Shown in pieces: positions 3 to 41,154 of a stretch of 42,969 nucleotides of DNA (position 1 is its first letter; the number at the start of each line of letters is the position of its first letter). The translations under genes and the position numbers were made by a program. The DNA comes from a virus. The notes under the pieces were generated by a model that was not told where the DNA came from, made no database searches, and was given only the letters and a program-made list of their open reading frames with translations. Location: positions 1-42,969 of IMG/VR virus record IMGVR_UViG_3300046373_000062. The stretch is one strand, 5' to 3'.

Positions 3-31
3 TTGCTTTTGATCTAGGTTTGTGATACACT
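3..31 (+). promoter_or_regulatory. Sigma70-like promoter for the nuclease/helicase operon
   Basis: TTGCTT, 17-base spacer, TGA, then TACACT: an extended -10 promoter. Start of transcription is expected near 38, giving a leader of about 50 bases before the ATG at 89. Confidence 0.7.
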
Positions 32-61
32 GGGAGTAGAAATAAAAAGCTACTCCCTTTT
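32..61 (+). terminator. Intrinsic terminator of the SSB operon, overlapping the next promoter
   Basis: GGGAGTAG (32-39) pairs with CTACTCCC (50-57) and is followed by TTTT. The 5' arm overlaps the -10/start of the promoter at 3-31, so RNA from that promoter would lack most of the arm. The hairpin can therefore form only in read-through RNA from the SSB operon across the circle joint. Confidence 0.6.
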
Positions 62-2686: not shown

Positions 2687-3538
2687 ATGAACAAACAAAA
2701 CTCCCGACCTATCAGCGACCTAGCAAGTTTGCTCACAAGTTCCGAAGAGCCAAAGCCGGAAAAGCGAAAGATCAAGTTCCTGCACGAGTACGAGCCACAA
2801 GCTCTCGAGCTTCTAAAGAATAAGGGTAAGTATCAGGGAATTAGCACTGGGTACACTGGTATCGACGACCGTATGGGCTCATTTTTACCAGGGGAACTTA
2901 TCACGATTGGTGGCGACACCGGCCATGGTAAGTCTCTTCTGGCTATGAATATCGCTCAGAACGTCTATGAGAAGTACCAGGAGCCTGTATTATTCATTAA
3001 CCTGGAACTTACCGTAGAGCAGGCTGTACAGCGTTTCTACGAGCTAGGTGGCAATGAACACGATTATGCTGGTATTATGGTACAGACGCAATCGGACGTT
3101 AATTACAAGGACGTTGCAGGGCTAATGGCTGAGGCAAAAGAAGAGGGTGTTAAGCTGGTGGTTGTCGATCACCTGCACTTCTTCGATGACTCCATTGGTG
3201 ACAACGCCGCCGCAGCTATTACTAGAGTGATGAAGTACTTCAAAAAGTGCGCTGTGAAGTTTGAACTCCCTGTTATTGTATTGAGTCACGTCACCCCGCA
3301 GACTCGTTTGACCCCTGACGGTATCGAACAAGTGAAACCAGAGCTCCATAGCTTCAAAAATAGCAAGTCTATCGAGCAGATATCAGATATGGTAGGCTTT
3401 GTGTTCCGTAATCAGAAGGACACCCGATACCTCGAGTTCTATATGTGCAAGAACCGTTCCCGTGAATTAAAAAATCAGCCCGTCGAGATGATACAGGACG
3501 ATTGGCGACTAATGGAATTAACAGATTGGAAAGAATAA
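2687..3538 (+). CDS. DnaB-like RecA-fold ATPase / replicative helicase core
   Basis: A 283-residue protein that is essentially the C-terminal RecA-like domain of DnaB: Walker A GGDTGHGKS at residues 75-83, Walker B VVVD ending at D161, then a SHVTPQ sensor-type segment and a basic loop near the end. The N-terminal DnaB scaffold domain is missing; only about 50 residues precede the core, as in several compact phage helicases. Expected role: hexameric 5'-3' helicase or DnaB-type recombination ATPase at the phage fork. It is followed two bases later by the KGG protein. Confidence 0.85.
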   Translation: MNKQNSRPISDLASLLTSSEEPKPEKRKIKFLHEYEPQALELLKNKGKYQGISTGYTGIDDRMGSFLPGELITIGGDTGHGKSLLAMNIAQNVYEKYQEPVLFINLELTVEQAVQRFYELGGNEHDYAGIMVQTQSDVNYKDVAGLMAEAKEEGVKLVVVDHLHFFDDSIGDNAAAAITRVMKYFKKCAVKFELPVIVLSHVTPQTRLTPDGIEQVKPELHSFKNSKSIEQISDMVGFVFRNQKDTRYLEFYMCKNRSRELKNQPVEMIQDDWRLMELTDWKE

Positions 3539-3539
3539 A

Positions 3540-3782
3540 ATGCCTGGTACTCCTGAAGGTGCAGCAAAAACAAGACAAAAAAACTTAGAAAAGGACCCGA
3601 ATTTTTATGCCAACATCGGTAAAAAGTCGTGGAACGACCCGCAGCGTAGCCGAACGGTCGGTTTCGCCCTCCTTGACAAAGAAGAGCTCAAGGAAATCAG
3701 CCAAAAAGGTGGCAGTAAAACCAAAAAGGACTACAAAACCAACCCTATCGAATCTGAAGAAATCAGTTCAGAAGTTAGCTAA
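3540..3782 (+). CDS. Small KGG-motif (stress-protein-like) phage protein
   Basis: An 80-residue basic product beginning MPGTPEGAAKTRQKN and containing FYANIGKKSW and a QKGGSKTKKDY segment. It resembles small phage and bacterial proteins with Gly-Gly/KGG motifs usually labelled general-stress-like. Role unknown. Its second half (3607-3782) is overlapped in another frame by the NinG-like gene. Confidence 0.65.
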   Translation: MPGTPEGAAKTRQKNLEKDPNFYANIGKKSWNDPQRSRTVGFALLDKEELKEISQKGGSKTKKDYKTNPIESEEISSEVS

Positions 3783-4185
3783 CCTCTATGCCCGAAGACG
3801 CGATTGTTTTGGATCAGACGGTGCGAACTGTATATCATGCGGACTCTGGTTTAGTTTCGCAGACCTTGATGGCGGTCATTTTATACCCGCTACGAGAGCA
3901 TCCCTTCGTTTTGACGAGAGAAACATTAACGGACAATGCCACCGATGCAATCGTTTCTTACACAGTAATGCCCGGGAATACTATAAAGGAATGCTTAGAA
4001 AGTACGGAGTGGACGTCGTTCGCGATCTTGAATCCCTTGAATGGCAACCAAAAAAGTGGACAAGAGAGGAGCTCGAGGGCGTTCGAAGCTATTATAGTAG
4101 AAAACTCGCCGAGCTAGACGCTGGAATTGCCCCTAATTTACCGAAGCCACAGACCATGGTATCTCTGTTCTTTGGCGATACTTGA
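3607..4185 (+). CDS. NinG/Rap-like HNH-type recombination nuclease
   Basis: A 192-residue product with the NinG signature: Y61xxxRD, CISCG (C75, C78), a DLDGGHF segment with H91, RFDERNINGQC, and CHRCN (C111, C114, N115) followed by a helix with a Tyr pair. NinG (Rap in lambda) acts on branched recombination intermediates. The only ATG lies 176 bases inside the preceding gene, with AGGA 11 bases upstream. The first ~45 residues are Lys/Arg/Ser-rich, so a downstream non-ATG start is possible. Ends in TGA just before a strong promoter. Confidence 0.8.
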   Translation: MPTSVKSRGTTRSVAERSVSPSLTKKSSRKSAKKVAVKPKRTTKPTLSNLKKSVQKLANLYARRRDCFGSDGANCISCGLWFSFADLDGGHFIPATRASLRFDERNINGQCHRCNRFLHSNAREYYKGMLRKYGVDVVRDLESLEWQPKKWTREELEGVRSYYSRKLAELDAGIAPNLPKPQTMVSLFFGDT

Positions 4186-4210
4186 CATAACGCTACTGGT
4201 TTGCTATACT
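4182..4210 (+). promoter_or_regulatory. Strong sigma70-like promoter
   Basis: TTGACA, 17 bases, TGC then TATACT: near-consensus with an extended -10. It directly follows the NinG stop and precedes a 56-residue membrane protein. The leader can fold GAAGT...ACTTC (about 4217-4243). Confidence 0.85.
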
Positions 4211-4263
4211 ATGTCCAGAAGTTGACCTCCCAAGGACCACTTCACTAAACATAAGGAGAAAGT

Positions 4264-4434
4264 ATGCAAAACATGAAAAAGGTAGTGGGTATCACTTACA
4301 AGGTGATTGCCTTATTCGCACTCGCTCTACTCGCTTCAGCCGGTATGTTTCATTTGACCGCTGGTTTGGATGCCCGTATTGTCTGGCCATTAACCGTACT
4401 AGTCGTCGCATTTCTTGTGCGCGAACTACTATAA
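4264..4434 (+). CDS. 56-residue membrane protein with two transmembrane segments
   Basis: Short gene starting after AAGGAGAAAGT. The product has a basic start (MQNMKKVV) and two hydrophobic helices (about residues 8-28 and 38-54) separated by a short polar turn. It is the first gene behind one of the best promoters in the genome, so it is likely made early and strongly. Small two-span early proteins in phages are often inhibitors of host envelope functions or superinfection exclusion factors; here that is only a possibility. Confidence 0.75.
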   Translation: MQNMKKVVGITYKVIALFALALLASAGMFHLTAGLDARIVWPLTVLVVAFLVRELL

Positions 4435-5179: not shown

Positions 5180-5352
5180 AGGATATTTCATATCAAAACA
5201 AAAAACATTAAAAACTAGATCATCGTCTTTCAGTCATCCGACTAGTCATACACTACATCGGCTTGAGTGGTACCTAGAGTAGTCGGGAGTCAATTTGCTA
5301 GTCCTCTGTACGGGTGGCTGAGCGTCGGTGATTTAGGGCAGGAGAAAGAAAC
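5180..5352 (+). ncRNA. Structured 5' leader, possible riboregulator
   Basis: No reading frame. CCGACTA (5238-5244) pairs with TAGTCGG (5280-5286) around an inner CACTAC/GTGGT stem; a second GC-rich stretch follows up to the GCAGGAGAAAG ribosome site at 5338-5348. That site is an 11-base perfect complement to the linker of the predicted RNA at 36432-36508. Confidence 0.4.
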
Positions 5353-5535
5353 ATGTGGTGGTTATTAACCAGCTTTGTACTTATCTATATTAGTTCCGCC
5401 AGTATCATACTAGGACTCGTTTTCCTAGCCCTCGGTGGTAATGTGTGGCTAAATCTATCTACGATAGCCCTGGCAATTATTGCTATTACCCTTTCATTAT
5501 TTAATATCGTTCATCTTATCAACGTAGGTGTATGA
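5353..5535 (+). CDS. 60-residue membrane protein, two transmembrane segments
   Basis: Nearly all hydrophobic: spans at about residues 3-27 and 33-58 with a short polar NVWLN turn. Strong GGAGAAAG site eight bases before the ATG. The stop overlaps the next start as ATGA. Function unknown; it is another small early inner-membrane protein of this phage. Confidence 0.75.
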   Translation: MWWLLTSFVLIYISSASIILGLVFLALGGNVWLNLSTIALAIIAITLSLFNIVHLINVGV

Positions 5536-5940: not shown

Positions 5941-6121
5941 AGCGACTAATGTTGACCTCGAAACACTAAAAGAAGCCTGTAAAGACGAATTACAGCGAAG
6001 ATATCTAGAAGAACTACAAACAAGCCTACTAGGAGAAAACAAAAATGCTATCACCACGAATCACACGACGAATCAAGCAAGAGGTACCGATCGACGGGGC
6101 CTTCGAACTGGAGAGCACTGA
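5900..6121 (+). CDS. Hypothetical small protein (GTG start)
   Basis: A 73-residue frame from GTG 5900, inside the end of the previous gene. The first ~45 residues form plausible helices (LETLKEACKDELQRRYLEELQ). The last ~25 are overlapped by the next gene and look less protein-like. It is probably translated by coupling, but the evidence is weaker than for its neighbours. Confidence 0.5.
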   Translation: MIKINGHTPIDLRKATNVDLETLKEACKDELQRRYLEELQTSLLGENKNAITTNHTTNQARGTDRRGLRTGEH

Positions 6122-6796: not shown

Positions 6797-8455
6797 ATGA
6801 AGACACCAGCAGAAGAAGTAGGCTTTGTCGTCGGCGGTCAATACAGGTTACAAGATGAACATAACACCTTTAATTTTTCCGCCGGAACTACGCTGACATT
6901 TAACGAAGACGATGGTAGTATCAACCCCTGGTTTATACAAGACGACCCAAATGACCGCTGGCCGATTGAACTAAGTTATTTCTTTAAAACAGGACAAACA
7001 AAACTAACACAGGAACAAATAGATATGGCATGGACAGAGATAGAAGAATTCAAGCCCGGAGATAAAGTTTCAACACCTCACGGTGACGCTAATGTTATTC
7101 AAGCCTATGAAAATAATATTACTTACGAAGTACCAGGCGGCTGGAGATACAATGAAGGCAGGTCACGAATTAAGAAGATCGAAACACAGGGAGAAAAACA
7201 AACAGAAGAAAAAGGAGAAAGAGTGGAATTTACTACAGAAGATATTGGCAAATCTGTCAAGAAGAAGAAAGATGGTAAGCTTGGCAAGATTGTCGATGTT
7301 AACAGCCGAAACGTCCGCGTTGAATGGCAAACCGGCCTGAAAGAAAGCATCAATAAAAAAGAAGCTCATAATCATATTGAGAAAACCGAAGATCAAGCTA
7401 AAAACGAAGAGAAGGCAGTCGAGCAAAAGACCAGCAACATGGCTGATAGTATGTTCGCCCTCCTCGAGGTAGAGCGCAAGGTCCGAGAGAAGATTGACGA
7501 AAAAGTAGACGAAGGCCTGAAAGAAATCAAGGAAATCGCTGAGTCAAAGCGTACTCTTGAGATTAAAAAGGGTGATGAGACCCGTGAAGTCAAGGGTACG
7601 AAGCACAAACAGCTCGAACAACTCATTGAATATGCGGCAGCTCGCCTTAACCCACTTCTTGTTGGTATGGCCGGTACAGGTAAGACACACGCCGCAGAAC
7701 AAGCCTCAGACGCTCTGGGACTCCGCTTCTTCTCCATCTCAGTAGGAGCACAGACCACGAAGACAGATATTATGGGGTATATGTCAGCCAACGGTGACTA
7801 TATCTCGACCCACTTCCGTGACGCCTACGAGAATGGTGGTATCTTCCTCATGGACGAGATTGACGCTGGTAACGCGAACGTCCTCATTACCATCAACGCA
7901 GCTCTATCGAACGGTATCGCGGCTTTCCCAGATACAATGGTAAAGAAGCACGATGATTTCATCTTTATCGCTTCAGCAAACACCTTCGGGAACGGTGCTA
8001 ACCGCCAGTATGTCGGCCGTAACCAGCTTGACGCCGCTACTCTCGACCGCTTTGCAGTGATTGAATGGCTGATCGACGATGATCTAGAGCGTTCACTAGC
8101 TCGTGGCGAACAAGGCAACGCATGGTATGAAGCAGTTAAAGAAACTCGTAAGTATGTTGCTGATCGTAGCATCCGGGCCCTTATCAGCCCACGTGCTACA
8201 CAAAAGGGCTCACTACTCATCTCACTGGGTAAAAGCGCAGAGGAGGCCGCTAACGCCACTCTCCTGAGCTCCGTACCAGAAGATAAGAAAGCGGACATAC
8301 TGAAGATTGCGCTCGACGTCTTTAACAGGAACCTAATCCCAAAAGGTAAAGCCAAACCTGCTCAAGCACCAAAGAAGAGCAGTGAGGGCATTGCAGTCCA
8401 GGGTAATGTAATATTTGGCGGTGGTATTGGCACCCTAGGGAGCTTACCCTTCTAA
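6797..8455 (+). CDS. MoxR/CobS-like AAA+ ATPase
   Basis: A 552-residue protein. The N-terminal third has two small SH3/KOW-like barrels (GDKVSTPHGDANV... and DIGKSVKKKKDGKLGKI), a charged helical linker follows, and the AAA+ module begins near residue 270: Walker A GMAGTGKT at about 290, Walker B IFLMDEID at about 350, sensor ASANTFG, and an arginine-finger-type LDRF. This is the MoxR/CobS clade, whose members remodel or load cofactors into partner proteins. The next gene, coupled by TAATG, is the likely partner. An internal start site at 7223 may yield a shorter form. Confidence 0.8.
   Translation: MKTPAEEVGFVVGGQYRLQDEHNTFNFSAGTTLTFNEDDGSINPWFIQDDPNDRWPIELSYFFKTGQTKLTQEQIDMAWTEIEEFKPGDKVSTPHGDANVIQAYENNITYEVPGGWRYNEGRSRIKKIETQGEKQTEEKGERVEFTTEDIGKSVKKKKDGKLGKIVDVNSRNVRVEWQTGLKESINKKEAHNHIEKTEDQAKNEEKAVEQKTSNMADSMFALLEVERKVREKIDEKVDEGLKEIKEIAESKRTLEIKKGDETREVKGTKHKQLEQLIEYAAARLNPLLVGMAGTGKTHAAEQASDALGLRFFSISVGAQTTKTDIMGYMSANGDYISTHFRDAYENGGIFLMDEIDAGNANVLITINAALSNGIAAFPDTMVKKHDDFIFIASANTFGNGANRQYVGRNQLDAATLDRFAVIEWLIDDDLERSLARGEQGNAWYEAVKETRKYVADRSIRALISPRATQKGSLLISLGKSAEEAANATLLSSVPEDKKADILKIALDVFNRNLIPKGKAKPAQAPKKSSEGIAVQGNVIFGGGIGTLGSLPF
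7208..7225 (+). promoter_or_regulatory. Internal ribosome-binding site and GTG inside the AAA+ gene
   Basis: AAAAAGGAGAAAGA directly before an in-frame GTG at 7223 (codon 143). The site matches the phage's best early ribosome sites. Use of it would give a ~410-residue ATPase without the first SH3-like barrel. Confidence 0.45.
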
Positions 8456-11040: not shown

Positions 11041-11114
11041 GTACAACGGGTGGACTCGAACCACCGACTTCCGGGTTTGACGCCCGGCGCTCTAGCCAAC
11101 TGAGCTACGTCGTA
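11041..11114 (-). tRNA. tRNA with anticodon UCA (UGA-reading?) and unusual G33
   Basis: Full cloverleaf: acceptor TACGACG/CGTTGTA with one G-T, D-stem GCTC/GAGC with GG in the loop, anticodon stem CCGGG/CCCGG, T-stem GGTGG/CCACC with loop TTCGAGT. The 7-base anticodon loop is CGTCAAA, so by standard numbering the anticodon is TCA (34-36), which would read UGA. Position 33, nearly always U, is G. CCA is not encoded. Identity is uncertain; it could be an opal-suppressor-type tRNA, or one not active as an elongator. Confidence 0.7.
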
Positions 11115-30211: not shown

Positions 30212-30773
30212 TGATCTTCTCCTTGATTACGTTTGACCATTGTTTTGCGACATCAGCCCACGATGTATTCGGGACTGGTGTACCTGTTCGCTTTTCCCTG
30301 AGGCCAGCCACGACTGCGGCAATGAACTCAGCTTGAGCATCTTTATCTTTTGAAATGTTCTGTGAGTCTATCTTGCGTCCGCTCTGAACCGTCTCTGCGA
30401 GTGCAGCAACAGAGGTGACGACTGGATAACAGCCTGCTTCCTGGGCCTTAAGTGCGGTGATACAGTGGATTTCTTCGAACTCAGTTGGATACGCCCATAC
30501 CTGTGTTTCTTGCATTGCCTTGGCTAGTTCTTCGTGTGAGACCCGGCCATGGACGGTAACGCCCTGATCTTTAAGCTGTTCAAACTTCTCCTCCATACGG
30601 AAGTAAAAGTCATCTTCGCCTTGGATAGCAACCCAGCTTTCCCAGCCGTAGTAGACGTCTAGCGTCGCGTCCGGGACATGTTCACGGATCGTAGGCCACA
30701 TATCAAGTAGGGTCTCAAGGCCGCGATAGTATGCACTAAAGTAACCAACACTGTTAGTCTTCTTTTTTATCAC
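30180..30773 (-). CDS. C-terminal half of a GT4 (GT-B) glycosyltransferase
   Basis: A 197-residue product that corresponds only to the nucleotide-sugar-binding Rossmann domain of a GT4 enzyme: SAYYRGLETLLDMWPTI, PDATLDVYYGW, VTVHGRVSHEELAKAM, and the E-x-E...E nucleotide-binding segment near residues 98-112 with AYPTEFEEIHC...EAGCYPVVT. The N-terminal acceptor domain is absent and is instead found at the end of the protein at 32453-34120, beyond GroEL. Start is a GTG at 30773 overlapping the GroEL end by 20 bases. It probably works with that protein as two chains. Confidence 0.75.
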   Translation of the reverse strand: MIKKKTNSVGYFSAYYRGLETLLDMWPTIREHVPDATLDVYYGWESWVAIQGEDDFYFRMEEKFEQLKDQGVTVHGRVSHEELAKAMQETQVWAYPTEFEEIHCITALKAQEAGCYPVVTSVAALAETVQSGRKIDSQNISKDKDAQAEFIAAVVAGLREKRTGTPVPNTSWADVAKQWSNVIKEKINERTSSTTAS

Positions 30774-32322
30774 TGTCTTCTTCCTTTCGGGCGATAAGTA
30801 CGCCAGCCGTTAGTGCTGAACCAGCAACAGAGGTAGCGTTCAAGACAGCCTGTTTAATAACGAGTGCAGGGTCGATGATACCGTGTTCCTTTAGGTTGAC
30901 TGGTGTTTCAGGGTCGCCCATGATATCATAGCCCATACCAAACTCAAAGCCTTCAAGCTGTTTAAGCTGAACACCATAGCGAAGTCCGGCATTTTCCATC
31001 AGGACCTTGAATGGTGCCTTGAGCGCTTCACGAAGGAGTTTATCACCGTCGCTATCGCCAAGTAGTTCAGATGCAAGACGGATATAGGTCATACCACCAC
31101 CAGGAACAACACCTTCTTTGAGTGCGGCCTCTGTCGCGGCAACAGCGTCATCAATGAGGTATTTACGCTCTTCAGCTTCCATTTCAGTGTTGCCACCAAC
31201 ACGGATTTGGCCAACCTTAGCTCGCAGTTGTGCAATACGTTTTTCAATCTTACTGCGGTCGAACTCAGTCTTTGTTTTGTCTAGCTTAGCTGATAGGTCG
31301 GTGATGTATTCAGTAACGTCCCTACCGCCAGTAATAATCGTTTCCTCAGGGGTAGATACGATTTCTTCGCAAGTACCAAGTTCTTCTACGGTAATGTCAG
31401 TAATCTTCTTCTGGAATTTTTTACCAGTAACTTCAGTACCGGTGAATGCCGCGAGGTCACGGAGTAGTTCCATACGTTGTTCGCCAAATCCAGGCGCTTT
31501 AATGCCGATGACAGTAAACTCATCAATATGGCTTAGTGACCACTGAAGAAGGTCTTCGCGGAAGTCATCAGCGATGATAACGAGTGACGAGTGGCCGAGG
31601 TTGAACAGTTCGTTCGTCAGGGCGATAGTATCTTTCAGGCCAACAGTCCCGTGGTAAAGCAGGATGTGAGGGTGTTCGATACGGGTAGTCTGGGTGCGCT
31701 GGTCGAGAATCATCATTGGGCTTAGAAGTCCTTTATCGAATACGTAGCCTTCGACAATTTCATACTCAGTCGCAGGTTTCGTACCGAGTTCGACGACAAC
31801 CATACCATCCTTACCTAAGGTGTGGTACATTTCGCCGATTTTTTCACCAATCTCTTTGCTTTCACTTGAGATAGTAGCGATTTCTACCGCAGCTTTCTTG
31901 GTTTTAATCGGTTCAGCGAAGCGTGGGAGTGCATCTAGAACAGTTTCCGCAGCTTTGTCAAGTTCACGACGAAGCATCATTGGGTTTTTGCCGTTCTCAA
32001 TCATCTGCATACCACCACTCATCAGGTGATAGGTCAGAATAGTCGAAGTGGTCGTTCCATCACCTACATTATCATTCGTTTTGCTCGAGCTTGACTTAAT
32101 CATCTCGATACCAATTTCAGCGCCAGGTGAGAGTCCATCGACATTTTCGATTGACTTAGCGACAGTCACGCCGTCATGGGTAACAATCGGTGCGCCATAG
32201 GCACCAATGAATGCATTCTGGCCTTTTGGACCGAGCGTCGTCGATACAGCCTCGTAGAGAAGCTTTGCGCCGTCTAGCAGCTGTTCTTTGGCTTGTTTGC
32301 CAGTGATTACAACCTTCTTCAT
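30754..32322 (-). CDS. groL: GroEL-like chaperonin
   Basis: A 522-residue chaperonin from the ATG at 32322 (GCAGGTGA upstream, TAATG overlap with the preceding small gene). A TTG at 32343 would add seven residues but is unlikely. Family motifs: TTLGPKGQNA, the ATP loop VGDGTTTSTIL, and GVVPGGGMTYIR. The C-terminus ends KEEDSDKKED without the GGM tail of cellular GroEL. No GroES gene is visible, so it would use the host co-chaperonin or none. It probably folds virion proteins. It sits between the two halves of a glycosyltransferase. Confidence 0.9.
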   Translation of the reverse strand: MKKVVITGKQAKEQLLDGAKLLYEAVSTTLGPKGQNAFIGAYGAPIVTHDGVTVAKSIENVDGLSPGAEIGIEMIKSSSSKTNDNVGDGTTTSTILTYHLMSGGMQMIENGKNPMMLRRELDKAAETVLDALPRFAEPIKTKKAAVEIATISSESKEIGEKIGEMYHTLGKDGMVVVELGTKPATEYEIVEGYVFDKGLLSPMMILDQRTQTTRIEHPHILLYHGTVGLKDTIALTNELFNLGHSSLVIIADDFREDLLQWSLSHIDEFTVIGIKAPGFGEQRMELLRDLAAFTGTEVTGKKFQKKITDITVEELGTCEEIVSTPEETIITGGRDVTEYITDLSAKLDKTKTEFDRSKIEKRIAQLRAKVGQIRVGGNTEMEAEERKYLIDDAVAATEAALKEGVVPGGGMTYIRLASELLGDSDGDKLLREALKAPFKVLMENAGLRYGVQLKQLEGFEFGMGYDIMGDPETPVNLKEHGIIDPALVIKQAVLNATSVAGSALTAGVLIARKEEDSDKKED

Positions 32323-32456
32323 TATTTTGTCACCTGCGTCCAATCATTAAGTTGTAGGTTCCAGTAATAAAGCATATTGTCGTTGCCAAGTCCGTAAACT
32401 AGACCGTTCGGGCTAACAGCGATCTGTAGGATGGTTGGTGTGGTTGTTGGTGTCAT
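32322..32456 (-). CDS. 44-residue tectonin/propeller-blade-like protein
   Basis: A short gene with a full AAAGGAG site seven bases before the ATG, coupled on both sides: ATGA with the glycosyltransferase stop and TAATG with the GroEL start. The product contains one blade-like unit, ILQIAVSPNGLVYGLGNDN then LYYWNLQLNDWTQV, as in tectonin/beta-propeller repeats. It may be a remnant or a real small partner of GroEL or the glycosyltransferase. Confidence 0.65.
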   Translation of the reverse strand: MTPTTTPTILQIAVSPNGLVYGLGNDNMLYYWNLQLNDWTQVTK

Positions 32457-36144: not shown

Positions 36145-36216
36145 TGGCACAGGAGGTAAGAGTTGAACTTACTAGCGGTCGGTTTTGGAGACCAACTTCG
36201 CACCTTGCGCTCCTGT
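36145..36216 (-). tRNA. tRNA-Trp (CCA) with a minimal D-arm
   Basis: Acceptor ACAGGAG/CTCCTGT (fully paired), anticodon stem TTGGT/ACCGA with loop CTCCAAA (anticodon CCA), T-arm GTAAG-TTCAACT-CTTAC, G73 and encoded CCA; A1-U72, G5-C68 and G73 fit Trp identity. Only 14 bases lie between acceptor and anticodon stem where about 19 are usual; they can fold as CGCA-agg-TGCG, without U8, A9 or G18G19. Total 72 bases with CCA. Confidence 0.75.
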
Positions 36217-36218
36217 TT

Positions 36219-36242
36219 ATAAAAATAGCCCTTTGCGGGCTA
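36219..36242 (-). terminator. Attenuator-type terminator directly before tRNA-Trp
   Basis: TAGCCC-gcaaa-GGGCTA followed by TTTTTAT on the - strand, ending three bases before the tRNA-Trp 5' end. As no promoter lies between, tRNA transcription must pass it. Confidence 0.75.
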
Positions 36243-36267
36243 CTATTCTCTTGACTATCAGAAAAAG

Positions 36268-36324
36268 CTACGCCCCGGAGGTGTATTCGTTAGAGCTATT
36301 CTGATTTTGCCAAGTAGTCTTCAT
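36268..36324 (-). CDS. Possible leader peptide rich in Trp, Gln and Asn codons
   Basis: An 18-codon frame, MKTTWQNQNSSNEYTSGA, between the promoter (36405-36433) and the terminator (36219-36242). It contains one Trp, two Gln and three Asn codons, exactly the three amino acids served by the tRNAs that follow. A stem pairs 36294-36303 (codons 8-10) with 36259-36269 after the stop; alternative pairings with the terminator arms exist (AATAGC with GCTATT). No Shine-Dalgarno is evident, which weakens the case that it is translated. Confidence 0.45.
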   Translation of the reverse strand: MKTTWQNQNSSNEYTSGA

Positions 36325-36404
36325 GTGTATGATGTGGTTTAGTTATCGAGTGCCCGTTTGCTGTTCTAGCACAGAAGGCCGGACCGAAAGAAGCTTGTGG
36401 TTGT

Positions 36405-36433
36405 ATATTACCACAGAAACTATTTTTTGTCAA
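36405..36433 (-). promoter_or_regulatory. Promoter of the Trp/Asn/Gln tRNA operon
   Basis: TTGACA, 17 bases, TGG then TAATAT on the - strand. Expected start near 36398, about 180 bases before tRNA-Trp. Confidence 0.8.
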
Positions 36434-36508
36434 TAAGGAACGCCGGACCACAGGGGAAGTCCGGCGCAGGAGAAAGGCCACGATCTGAAGACCCCGACAG
36501 ATCATGAC
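36432..36508 (-). ncRNA. Candidate ~75-nt small RNA with anti-Shine-Dalgarno linker
   Basis: Bounded by the promoter at 36515-36543 and a terminator-like stem CGCCGGAC/GTCCGGCG (36441-36466) followed by TTCCTTATT. A first stem GATCT/AGATC lies at 36482-36503. The unpaired linker reads GGCCUUUCUCCUGC, complementary to AGGAGAAAG, the core of several early ribosome sites in this genome. The frame crossing it (36296-36505) is not protein-like. Confidence 0.6.
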
Positions 36509-36514
36509 TAGTAC

Positions 36515-36543
36515 ATTATAACATAAGCTTCGTGATATGTAAA
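36515..36543 (-). promoter_or_regulatory. Promoter of the small RNA at 36432-36508
   Basis: TTTACA, 17 bases, TGT then TATAAT on the - strand; consensus extended -10. Confidence 0.8.
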
Positions 36544-36547
36544 GCTT

Positions 36548-36709
36548 TTATTGGCAACCTTCGCATTGCGTCAGATCAGCTGGGTCGAGCGGGGCGGCAC
36601 CTGGGTTAGTTTTCTGGTGCTGGACCTGCGCTTCTTGCATAGCCTTGTCGATGGCGGCAAGCTTTTCCTCGAGAGTCATGTCCTCGTTGATGATGTTGTT
36701 TGCGTTCAT
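36548..36709 (-). CDS. 53-residue protein with C-terminal CEGCQ
   Basis: Start at the ATG at 36709 after AAAGGAAAAAC. The product is an acidic helix (EDMTLEEKLAAIDKAMQEAQVQ), then a Pro-rich stretch and a terminal CEGCQ that could bind metal or form a disulfide. Preceded by a long, structured, gene-free region. No family recognised. Confidence 0.6.
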   Translation of the reverse strand: MNANNIINEDMTLEEKLAAIDKAMQEAQVQHQKTNPGAAPLDPADLTQCEGCQ

Positions 36710-40599: not shown

Positions 40600-40698
40600 A
40601 AAGACAGTCGAACGACGCACAACACCAAAGCAGATAGCAGGGTTGAAGCGTACAACTAGACGAAGCCACCCAATAACGAAGCAATAAGGAGAAAGACA

Positions 40699-41154
40699 AT
40701 GCAAGACCTTTACACTAAAGAAGCACAAGAGCGCCGCGATCGTTTCAACACCATCATTAGTAAAATAGATATGGTATTAATGAACAAAATCCCCGAGGTT
40801 GATGATTCGATCTGGGAGAACTGGGAAGATAGCCGCCCGGAAGATAATTGCGACGTTATAGACATATCTAACGCTAGCGACGAGGTTCGCAAGCAAGCAC
40901 CTGAAGGTATGGACTATTACTGCCAAGAGCACAGCCAATATACTGACATATCAGACCAGTGCGATAGCTATGGAGAGGGTGTTGAAGTCTACCAGTGGTA
41001 CGCCGTTAATAGTGTTGACGCTGAATATCTAGCAGACCACAAGCAGTATATTACTTATAGCGACGCGCTAGATACGTATTTCTTAGCCATTACTCACTTC
41101 GGTACGGCCTGGGACTATGTAGATAGCATGGTTGACGACATTCTAGGAGAATAA
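40699..41154 (+). CDS. Acidic early protein, possible DNA mimic
   Basis: A 151-residue product with a strong AAGGAGAAAGACA site, first behind a promoter. After a short basic start it is very rich in Asp and Glu (VDDSIWENWEDSRPEDNCDVIDI; DISDQCDSYGEGVEVYQWY; YVDSMVDDILGE) with few Lys/Arg. Small acidic early phage proteins are sometimes DNA mimics that block host nucleases; this is inference from composition. No family recognised. Confidence 0.7.
   Translation: MQDLYTKEAQERRDRFNTIISKIDMVLMNKIPEVDDSIWENWEDSRPEDNCDVIDISNASDEVRKQAPEGMDYYCQEHSQYTDISDQCDSYGEGVEVYQWYAVNSVDAEYLADHKQYITYSDALDTYFLAITHFGTAWDYVDSMVDDILGE

Follow-up and report, generated by a model that had tools for sequence, protein, structure and literature searches.

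A small RNA (sRNA) encoded by the phage analysed here belongs to a real and apparently uncatalogued sRNA family of related, uncultured phages, and an anti-Shine-Dalgarno function of this family is probable. Comparison of seven phages suggests with good probability that it is a trans-acting antisense RNA which would occlude Shine-Dalgarno sites of the phage's early mRNAs, foremost that of a membrane-protein gene.

The sRNA Gene and Its Predicted Transcript

The window, the whole stretch of DNA that was analysed, represents a phage genome of 42,969 bases with a terminal repeat of ~127 bases. Early genes are located on the plus strand, those for terminase and structural proteins on the minus strand, together with a gene for a GroEL-like chaperonin (30754-32343; Pfam Cpn60, E=5e-47), which is annotated in phage MW202497 too. 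The sRNA gene of ~78 nt occupies positions 36432-36509 of the minus strand, its start being deduced from the promoter and its end from the terminator. The initial annotation had proposed an RNA of ~75 nt with two hairpins and a linker, defined by a promoter and a terminator-like stem and transcribed from the late/tRNA strand. Both signals were recovered by a consensus scan, RNA folding agreed with the architecture, which recurs in six relatives, and the strand was correctly assigned; the sequence itself carries no sign of late expression.

The sRNA promoter (36515-36543, minus strand) consists of the −35 element TTTACA (36543-36538), a 17-nt spacer and the −10 element TATAAT (36520-36515) preceded by TG, and matches the consensus at 11 of 12 positions. 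Two promoters were found by the consensus scan, compared to 0.4 expected in shuffled sequence, and the −10 region of the sRNA promoter is kept in all seven phages. On the same strand follow the 5′ hairpin of 11 bp (GUCAUGAUCUG..CAGAUCGUGGC, 36477-36508), the anti-Shine-Dalgarno linker CUUUCUCCU (36468-36476) and the terminator hairpin with its U-rich tail (GCGCCGGAC..GUCCGGCGU, 36432-36467); folding of the window RNA predicted the linker to be unpaired between the two hairpins. The GC-rich, terminator-like stem detected by the consensus scan (36467-36440) comprises 10 pairs and is followed by the tail TCCTTATTGA. This U-tail is weak in the window (5 T in 9), and the copy in MW202497 has a perfect TTTTTTC tail at the same position, representing a textbook intrinsic terminator. 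The element is equipped with its own promoter and intrinsic terminator, the copy of L166/G007 being cut at the contig end and retaining the −10 element only.

Conservation in Related Phages

Relatives were gathered by a terminase search and a GenBank search. The same succession of promoter, hairpin, linker and hairpin was found in six more phages (L003/G002, L004/G003, L005/G004, MW202497, L166/G007 and L170/G009), in all six upstream of the terminase. Since it occupies the same place in relatives that are otherwise ~69% identical, and this only where the DNA is alignable, the element is more than a chance arrangement. It is absent at the equivalent position of L002/G001 and L169/G008, whose contigs are partial, and is therefore dispensable in the phage group. 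At this place in L002 (~3480-4000) a similar promoter is kept, but a protein gene (start ATGGCAAACCTACATCCC) is present.

Rfam covariance models matched nothing in window positions 36200-36560 up to E=10, and in the relatives they detected only tRNAs at the gathering threshold; therefore, a relation to any Rfam family was not detected. A structural filter applied to 820 occurrences of TTTCTCC in the DNA searched recovered the sRNA family. The remaining passes had no promoter and terminator context on inspection, and no convincing member was found among them outside the phage group. DNA-pattern matches outside the group were dismissed as chance, the one in L034, for example, lying within a repetitive gene. 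Alignment of the terminase against a bacterial genome collection revealed no relative.

The fold of hairpin, linker and hairpin is predicted for all seven RNAs, with a mean unpaired probability of the linker of 0.89-1.00. The linker reads [C/U]UUUCUCCU in all seven, eight of its nine positions being invariant, and its mean pairwise identity is 0.95 compared to 0.57, 0.64 and 0.55 for the stem arms. The initial annotation had regarded conserved stems around a variable linker as evidence against its proposal; the opposite was found (95% identity for the linker, 55-64% for the stem arms). As the linker is kept while the stems are rewritten, we conclude that this RNA has a working part which is single-stranded and conserved. 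Stem pairs were counted on a hand alignment of the seven RNAs, because MAFFT misplaces the stems of G002 and G009. Compensatory changes are found in stem 1, where pair 6 is G-C, U-A, A-U or C-G, pair 3 is C-G or G-C, and pairs 4, 5, 8 and 9 each occur as three standard pair types; misfits are few (A-C in G007, U-U in G003/G004). Promoter, structure, covariation and linker conservation, as well as the complementarity described below, are directly evident from the sequence.

A possible loop-loop kissing interaction in the window (GGGG with CCCC) was taken as chance because it is not conserved in the relatives. Pairing extended through GUGGC, whose complement AGGAGAAAAGCCAC resembles a Shine-Dalgarno sequence with spacer and AUG, was likewise rejected: five of the seven phages have GUGGC paired at the base of stem 1, and the sequence reads GCGGU in G007 and AACGC in G009. 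Target ranking was restricted to the unpaired linker, because genome-wide duplex ranking including GUGGC was dominated by GC-rich chance matches.

Complementary Ribosome Sites and the Candidate Target

The complement of the linker, AGGAGAAA[A/G], comprises a Shine-Dalgarno core and spacer. On the plus strand of the window, AGGAGAAAG at 4254-4262 forms 9/9 Watson-Crick pairs with the linker and ends one base before the ATG of a 56-aa protein. Further candidate sites are GCAGGAGAAAG at 5338-5348 (AGGAGAAAG at 5340 preceded by GC, 11/11) before ORF 5353-5535, and AGGAGAAAG at 40687-40695 before ORF 40699-41154. Another AGGAGAAAG at 7213-7221 precedes a GTG which may not be a real start, since the site lies in frame inside ORF 6797-8455. 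All four complementary sites listed in the initial annotation are real, two of them being shifted by two bases (4254 for 4252 and 7213 for 7211). The 8/9 matches claimed for several other sites correspond to AGGAGAAAA, found at 994-1002 before ORF 1004-1249 and similarly at 6031 and 9550, all on the plus strand.

Complementarity alone is weak evidence, because many Shine-Dalgarno sites would pair with any sequence containing UCUCCU. Ranked by energy among 256 NNNNCUCCU variants, the linker is an unremarkable 75th. Since a CU-rich linker will to some extent match Shine-Dalgarno sites trivially, more weight is given to the conservation pattern and the case of G009 than to the match counts. A general ACTCCC motif in leaders was dropped as its enrichment was weak.

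Among 68 gene families represented in four or all of the five complete phages, the strongest average complementarity to the linker was that of an early membrane protein of 56-61 aa, which every one of these five sRNA-bearing phages possesses. In the window it is the above 56-aa protein with two predicted membrane helices (4264-4434, plus strand), which has a promoter TTGACA-17-TATACT at 4182-4210 on the same strand. The leaders contain AGGAGAA in 5/5 complete phages, and the worst family member (−9.2 kcal/mol) is still below every other family mean except that of the second. An equally good best family was obtained with 6 of 300 shuffled linkers (about p=0.02), and the family was chosen after ranking all 68; the ranking by itself is therefore only suggestive. 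All six members, from the five complete phages and G009, have a TTGACA-17-TATACT-like promoter and a leader of 24-70 nt, and their duplexes with the linker range from −10.0 to −18.1 kcal/mol. The G003 site comprises just 7 bp and is 23rd in the ranking of that genome. With two hydrophobic segments in 56-61 aa, the protein is small and hydrophobic like the targets in type I toxin-antitoxin systems; comparison with Pfam and PHROGs gave no convincing match.

The sRNA of G009 has wholly different stems and a longer unpaired linker, GCUUUUCUCCU. At the syntenic locus of this phage, between the exonuclease and a 309-424-aa gene, the small protein has a diverged counterpart (profile E=0.004), which is the best profile match among partial contigs. 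Its leader carries AGGAGAAAAGC, an 11-bp match to G009's own RNA (−18.1 kcal/mol). Simple arithmetic gives a chance expectation of about 0.014 copies of this 11-mer in 29.7 kb, for both strands and even base composition. Apart from the antisense of the sRNA itself, the contig contains only one other copy, ~50 nt before the likely GTG start of the exonuclease. This linker-complementary AGGAGAAAAGC is present away from the start codon in the exonuclease leader region of both G004 and G009. A hairpin was also observed in the leader of the exonuclease gene (window 24-60, plus strand, GGGAGUAG..CUACUCCC; G004 160-195, GGAGUUAGG..CCUAACUCC; G009 ~6785). In a way similar to the match of linker and site in G009, position 1 of the window linker is C, and 4/7 of the window's AGGAGAAAR start sites end in G, compared to ~1/10 in the other phages, the seven window sites being a small sample.

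Because its linker matches the translation start of the membrane-protein gene in each phage, the RNA probably blocks translation of this gene. We propose that the sRNA is a stand-alone gene of a phage group, giving rise to a transcript of ~63-80 nt that would extend from its own sigma-70 promoter to the intrinsic terminator. The two hairpins would serve as scaffold and end protection, and the unpaired CUUUUCUCCU between them would be the working part. On early mRNAs of the phage itself, this linker is predicted to pair with the Shine-Dalgarno region and spacer (AGGAGAAA) immediately preceding start codons, which would block 30S loading, as judged from established knowledge of bacterial sRNAs. 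The most consistent target would be the mRNA of the early two-helix membrane protein; in the window phage, regulation probably extends to several further early genes that have AGGAGAAAR sites. From the features described we infer transcription, pairing in vivo, repression, timing and the role of the target. It is doubtful, though worth considering, that RNA and membrane protein constitute a phage-borne regulatory pair comparable to type I toxin-antitoxin systems with separated genes, co-evolving via linker and ribosome site, as the 11-bp match in G009 might indicate, and widened to a set of early genes in the window phage.

Alternative Explanations

The initial annotation had suggested that the RNA shuts off early translation. 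In its broadest form, the RNA would silence the majority of early genes of the phage, and perhaps genes of the host as well, upon expression of the late strand, on which the sRNA gene is indeed located. Binding to the linker is stronger for early than for late leaders in the window (mean −8.2 compared to −5.2 kcal/mol, p=0.002). Of 300 shuffled linkers, not one binds the early leaders equally well, so that complementarity is here better than for shuffled sequence. In six phages, perfect AGGAGAAAR start sites, counted without gene calls as AGGAG ending 4-12 bases ahead of a start codon, are early in 17 cases and late in one, an in-gene TTG. However, the contrast between early and late leaders is not significant in any of the five other phages singly and is absent in G002 and G009 (pooled p=0.049), and G004 has no perfect AGGAGAAAR start site at all. 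Moreover, there is no sign of late timing, because sRNA and candidate target have promoters of one and the same sigma-70 type. Consistency across phages is found for one early gene, rather than for all early genes. What stands of the suggestion is a discrete RNA gene whose exposed and conserved linker can pair with ribosome sites of early genes; the idea that early translation is generally shut off late in infection finds backing in the window phage alone, and we consider it unlikely.

Three further readings were considered. The element might be the leader or attenuator of a tRNA array, the second hairpin acting as a regulated terminator and the linker as part of an alternative structure or as a protein-binding site. 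A tRNA does begin a few bases past the terminator in G003, G007 and G009, but MW202497 has no tRNA genes, a second promoter precedes any tRNA in the window, G002 and G004, and the linker is unpaired in every fold and has no conserved partner within the transcript; this explanation is quite improbable. Even less probable is a decoy function, in which the pyrimidine linker, U- and C-rich and exposed in every copy, would capture an RNA-binding protein of host or phage (Hfq-like or S1) instead of mRNA; the invariant CUCCU and the 11-bp extension in the G009 target are more readily explained by base pairing than by a loosely defined pyrimidine site. Finally, the plus strand, which carries AGGAGAAARGCCAC, might be the functional one, with AGGAGAAAGGCC as ribosome-binding site or as DNA element. 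An ATG follows the motif only in G002, no promoter was found on the plus strand, and the promoter and U-rich tail of the RNA fit the minus strand only, which leaves this reading with hardly any likelihood.

Several further features concern tRNA genes and their surroundings. A second promoter in the window, TTGACA-17-TAATAT, precedes a leader (36433-36219, minus strand) ending at an intrinsic terminator near the array. This leader holds an ORF of 15-21 codons without Shine-Dalgarno sequence, which also occurs just upstream of the arrays of L002, L003, L004, L005 and L169; MW202497 and L170, which have no arrays, possess a similar leader without such an ORF. In the six array-bearing phages the leader peptide is rich in amino acids of the downstream tRNAs (49 residues observed, 22 expected, z 6.6), and own tRNA sets do better than swapped ones (12/720 permutations), both statistics being inflated by peptide relatedness. 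Ribosome-mediated attenuation of a phage tRNA operon is possible. The Trp-Asn-Gln array of the window starts with a tRNA-Trp-like gene (anticodon CCA, 36149-36215, minus strand) missed by ARAGORN and Rfam. A tRNA with UCA anticodon (11041-11114, minus strand; SeC according to ARAGORN) is located beside a tRNA-Met; as only 1/20 long window ORFs ends in TGA, it is conceivable that it acts as a UGA-reading suppressor. Between tRNA array and terminase, a conserved structured-looking segment of ~300 nt (AATAAGTTGCTACGCACGGCTAAGGCCATCG ... TAGTGCGGAGGGG) was observed in L166 (~350-700), L169, L170, L002 and L004; it is absent from the window and has no Rfam match at the gathering threshold.

Comparison with Known Systems

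If our interpretation is correct, a phage group encodes a small translational repressor directed against its own early mRNAs, with structure, pairing region and candidate target conserved. In our judgement it is unusual for an sRNA target to be backed by comparison across relatives. The system would provide a compact test case for how a 9-nt anti-Shine-Dalgarno linker chooses among similar ribosome sites, and would draw attention to a membrane protein that is as yet unstudied and whose amount seems to be under phage control.

In type I toxin-antitoxin systems with a separately encoded RNA, such as istR/tisB and ohsC/shoB, the RNA prevents a very small, hydrophobic membrane protein from being translated. 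The candidate target of the phage sRNA is a protein of this kind as well, and its gene has a promoter of its own; the predicted pairing, however, is short and located at the ribosome-binding site, and the RNA seems to have further targets.

Phage-encoded antisense RNAs acting at ribosome-binding sites are exemplified by c4 RNA of phages P1 and P7, which blocks the ribosome-binding site of the phage gene ant (PMC12197685). In contrast to the sRNA described here, with its exposed linker between hairpins, c4 has its role in the heteroimmunity of temperate phages, and its pairing involves sequences presumed to lie in loops. Other phage small RNAs, 24B_1, OOP, VpdS and PreS, regulate phage or host mRNAs, and many phage sRNAs reviewed stem from temperate phages or prophages (PMC12197685). 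The phage sRNA shares with these four that it is phage-encoded, and matches no Rfam family. No phage anti-Shine-Dalgarno sRNA of this design was found in the largely open-access literature searched.

The closest resemblance is to the streptococcal csRNAs of the CiaRH regulon, which possess an unpaired anti-Shine-Dalgarno region, in many of them between two stem-loops, and which repress translation of comC, control being restored when complementarity is restored (PMC3091779, PMC4507080). These RNAs of 51-202 nt are host genes of the CiaR regulon, and 53/61 contain the anti-start codon CAU (PMC3091779, PMC4507080). Two stem-loops with an unpaired anti-Shine-Dalgarno region between them are common to both, whereas the sRNA described here is a phage gene, its 9-nt linker lacks CAU, and its candidate targets are phage genes. 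None of the seven linkers contains an anti-start codon, be it CAU or anti-GUG/UUG. On the best reading, the phage sRNA would work like csRNAs but is not one of them, the anti-start codon being missing and the host possibly a different one. The mechanism would be of a known kind, while no precedent for the family, for its setting in phages or for a target likely dedicated to it was found in the literature and databases searched.
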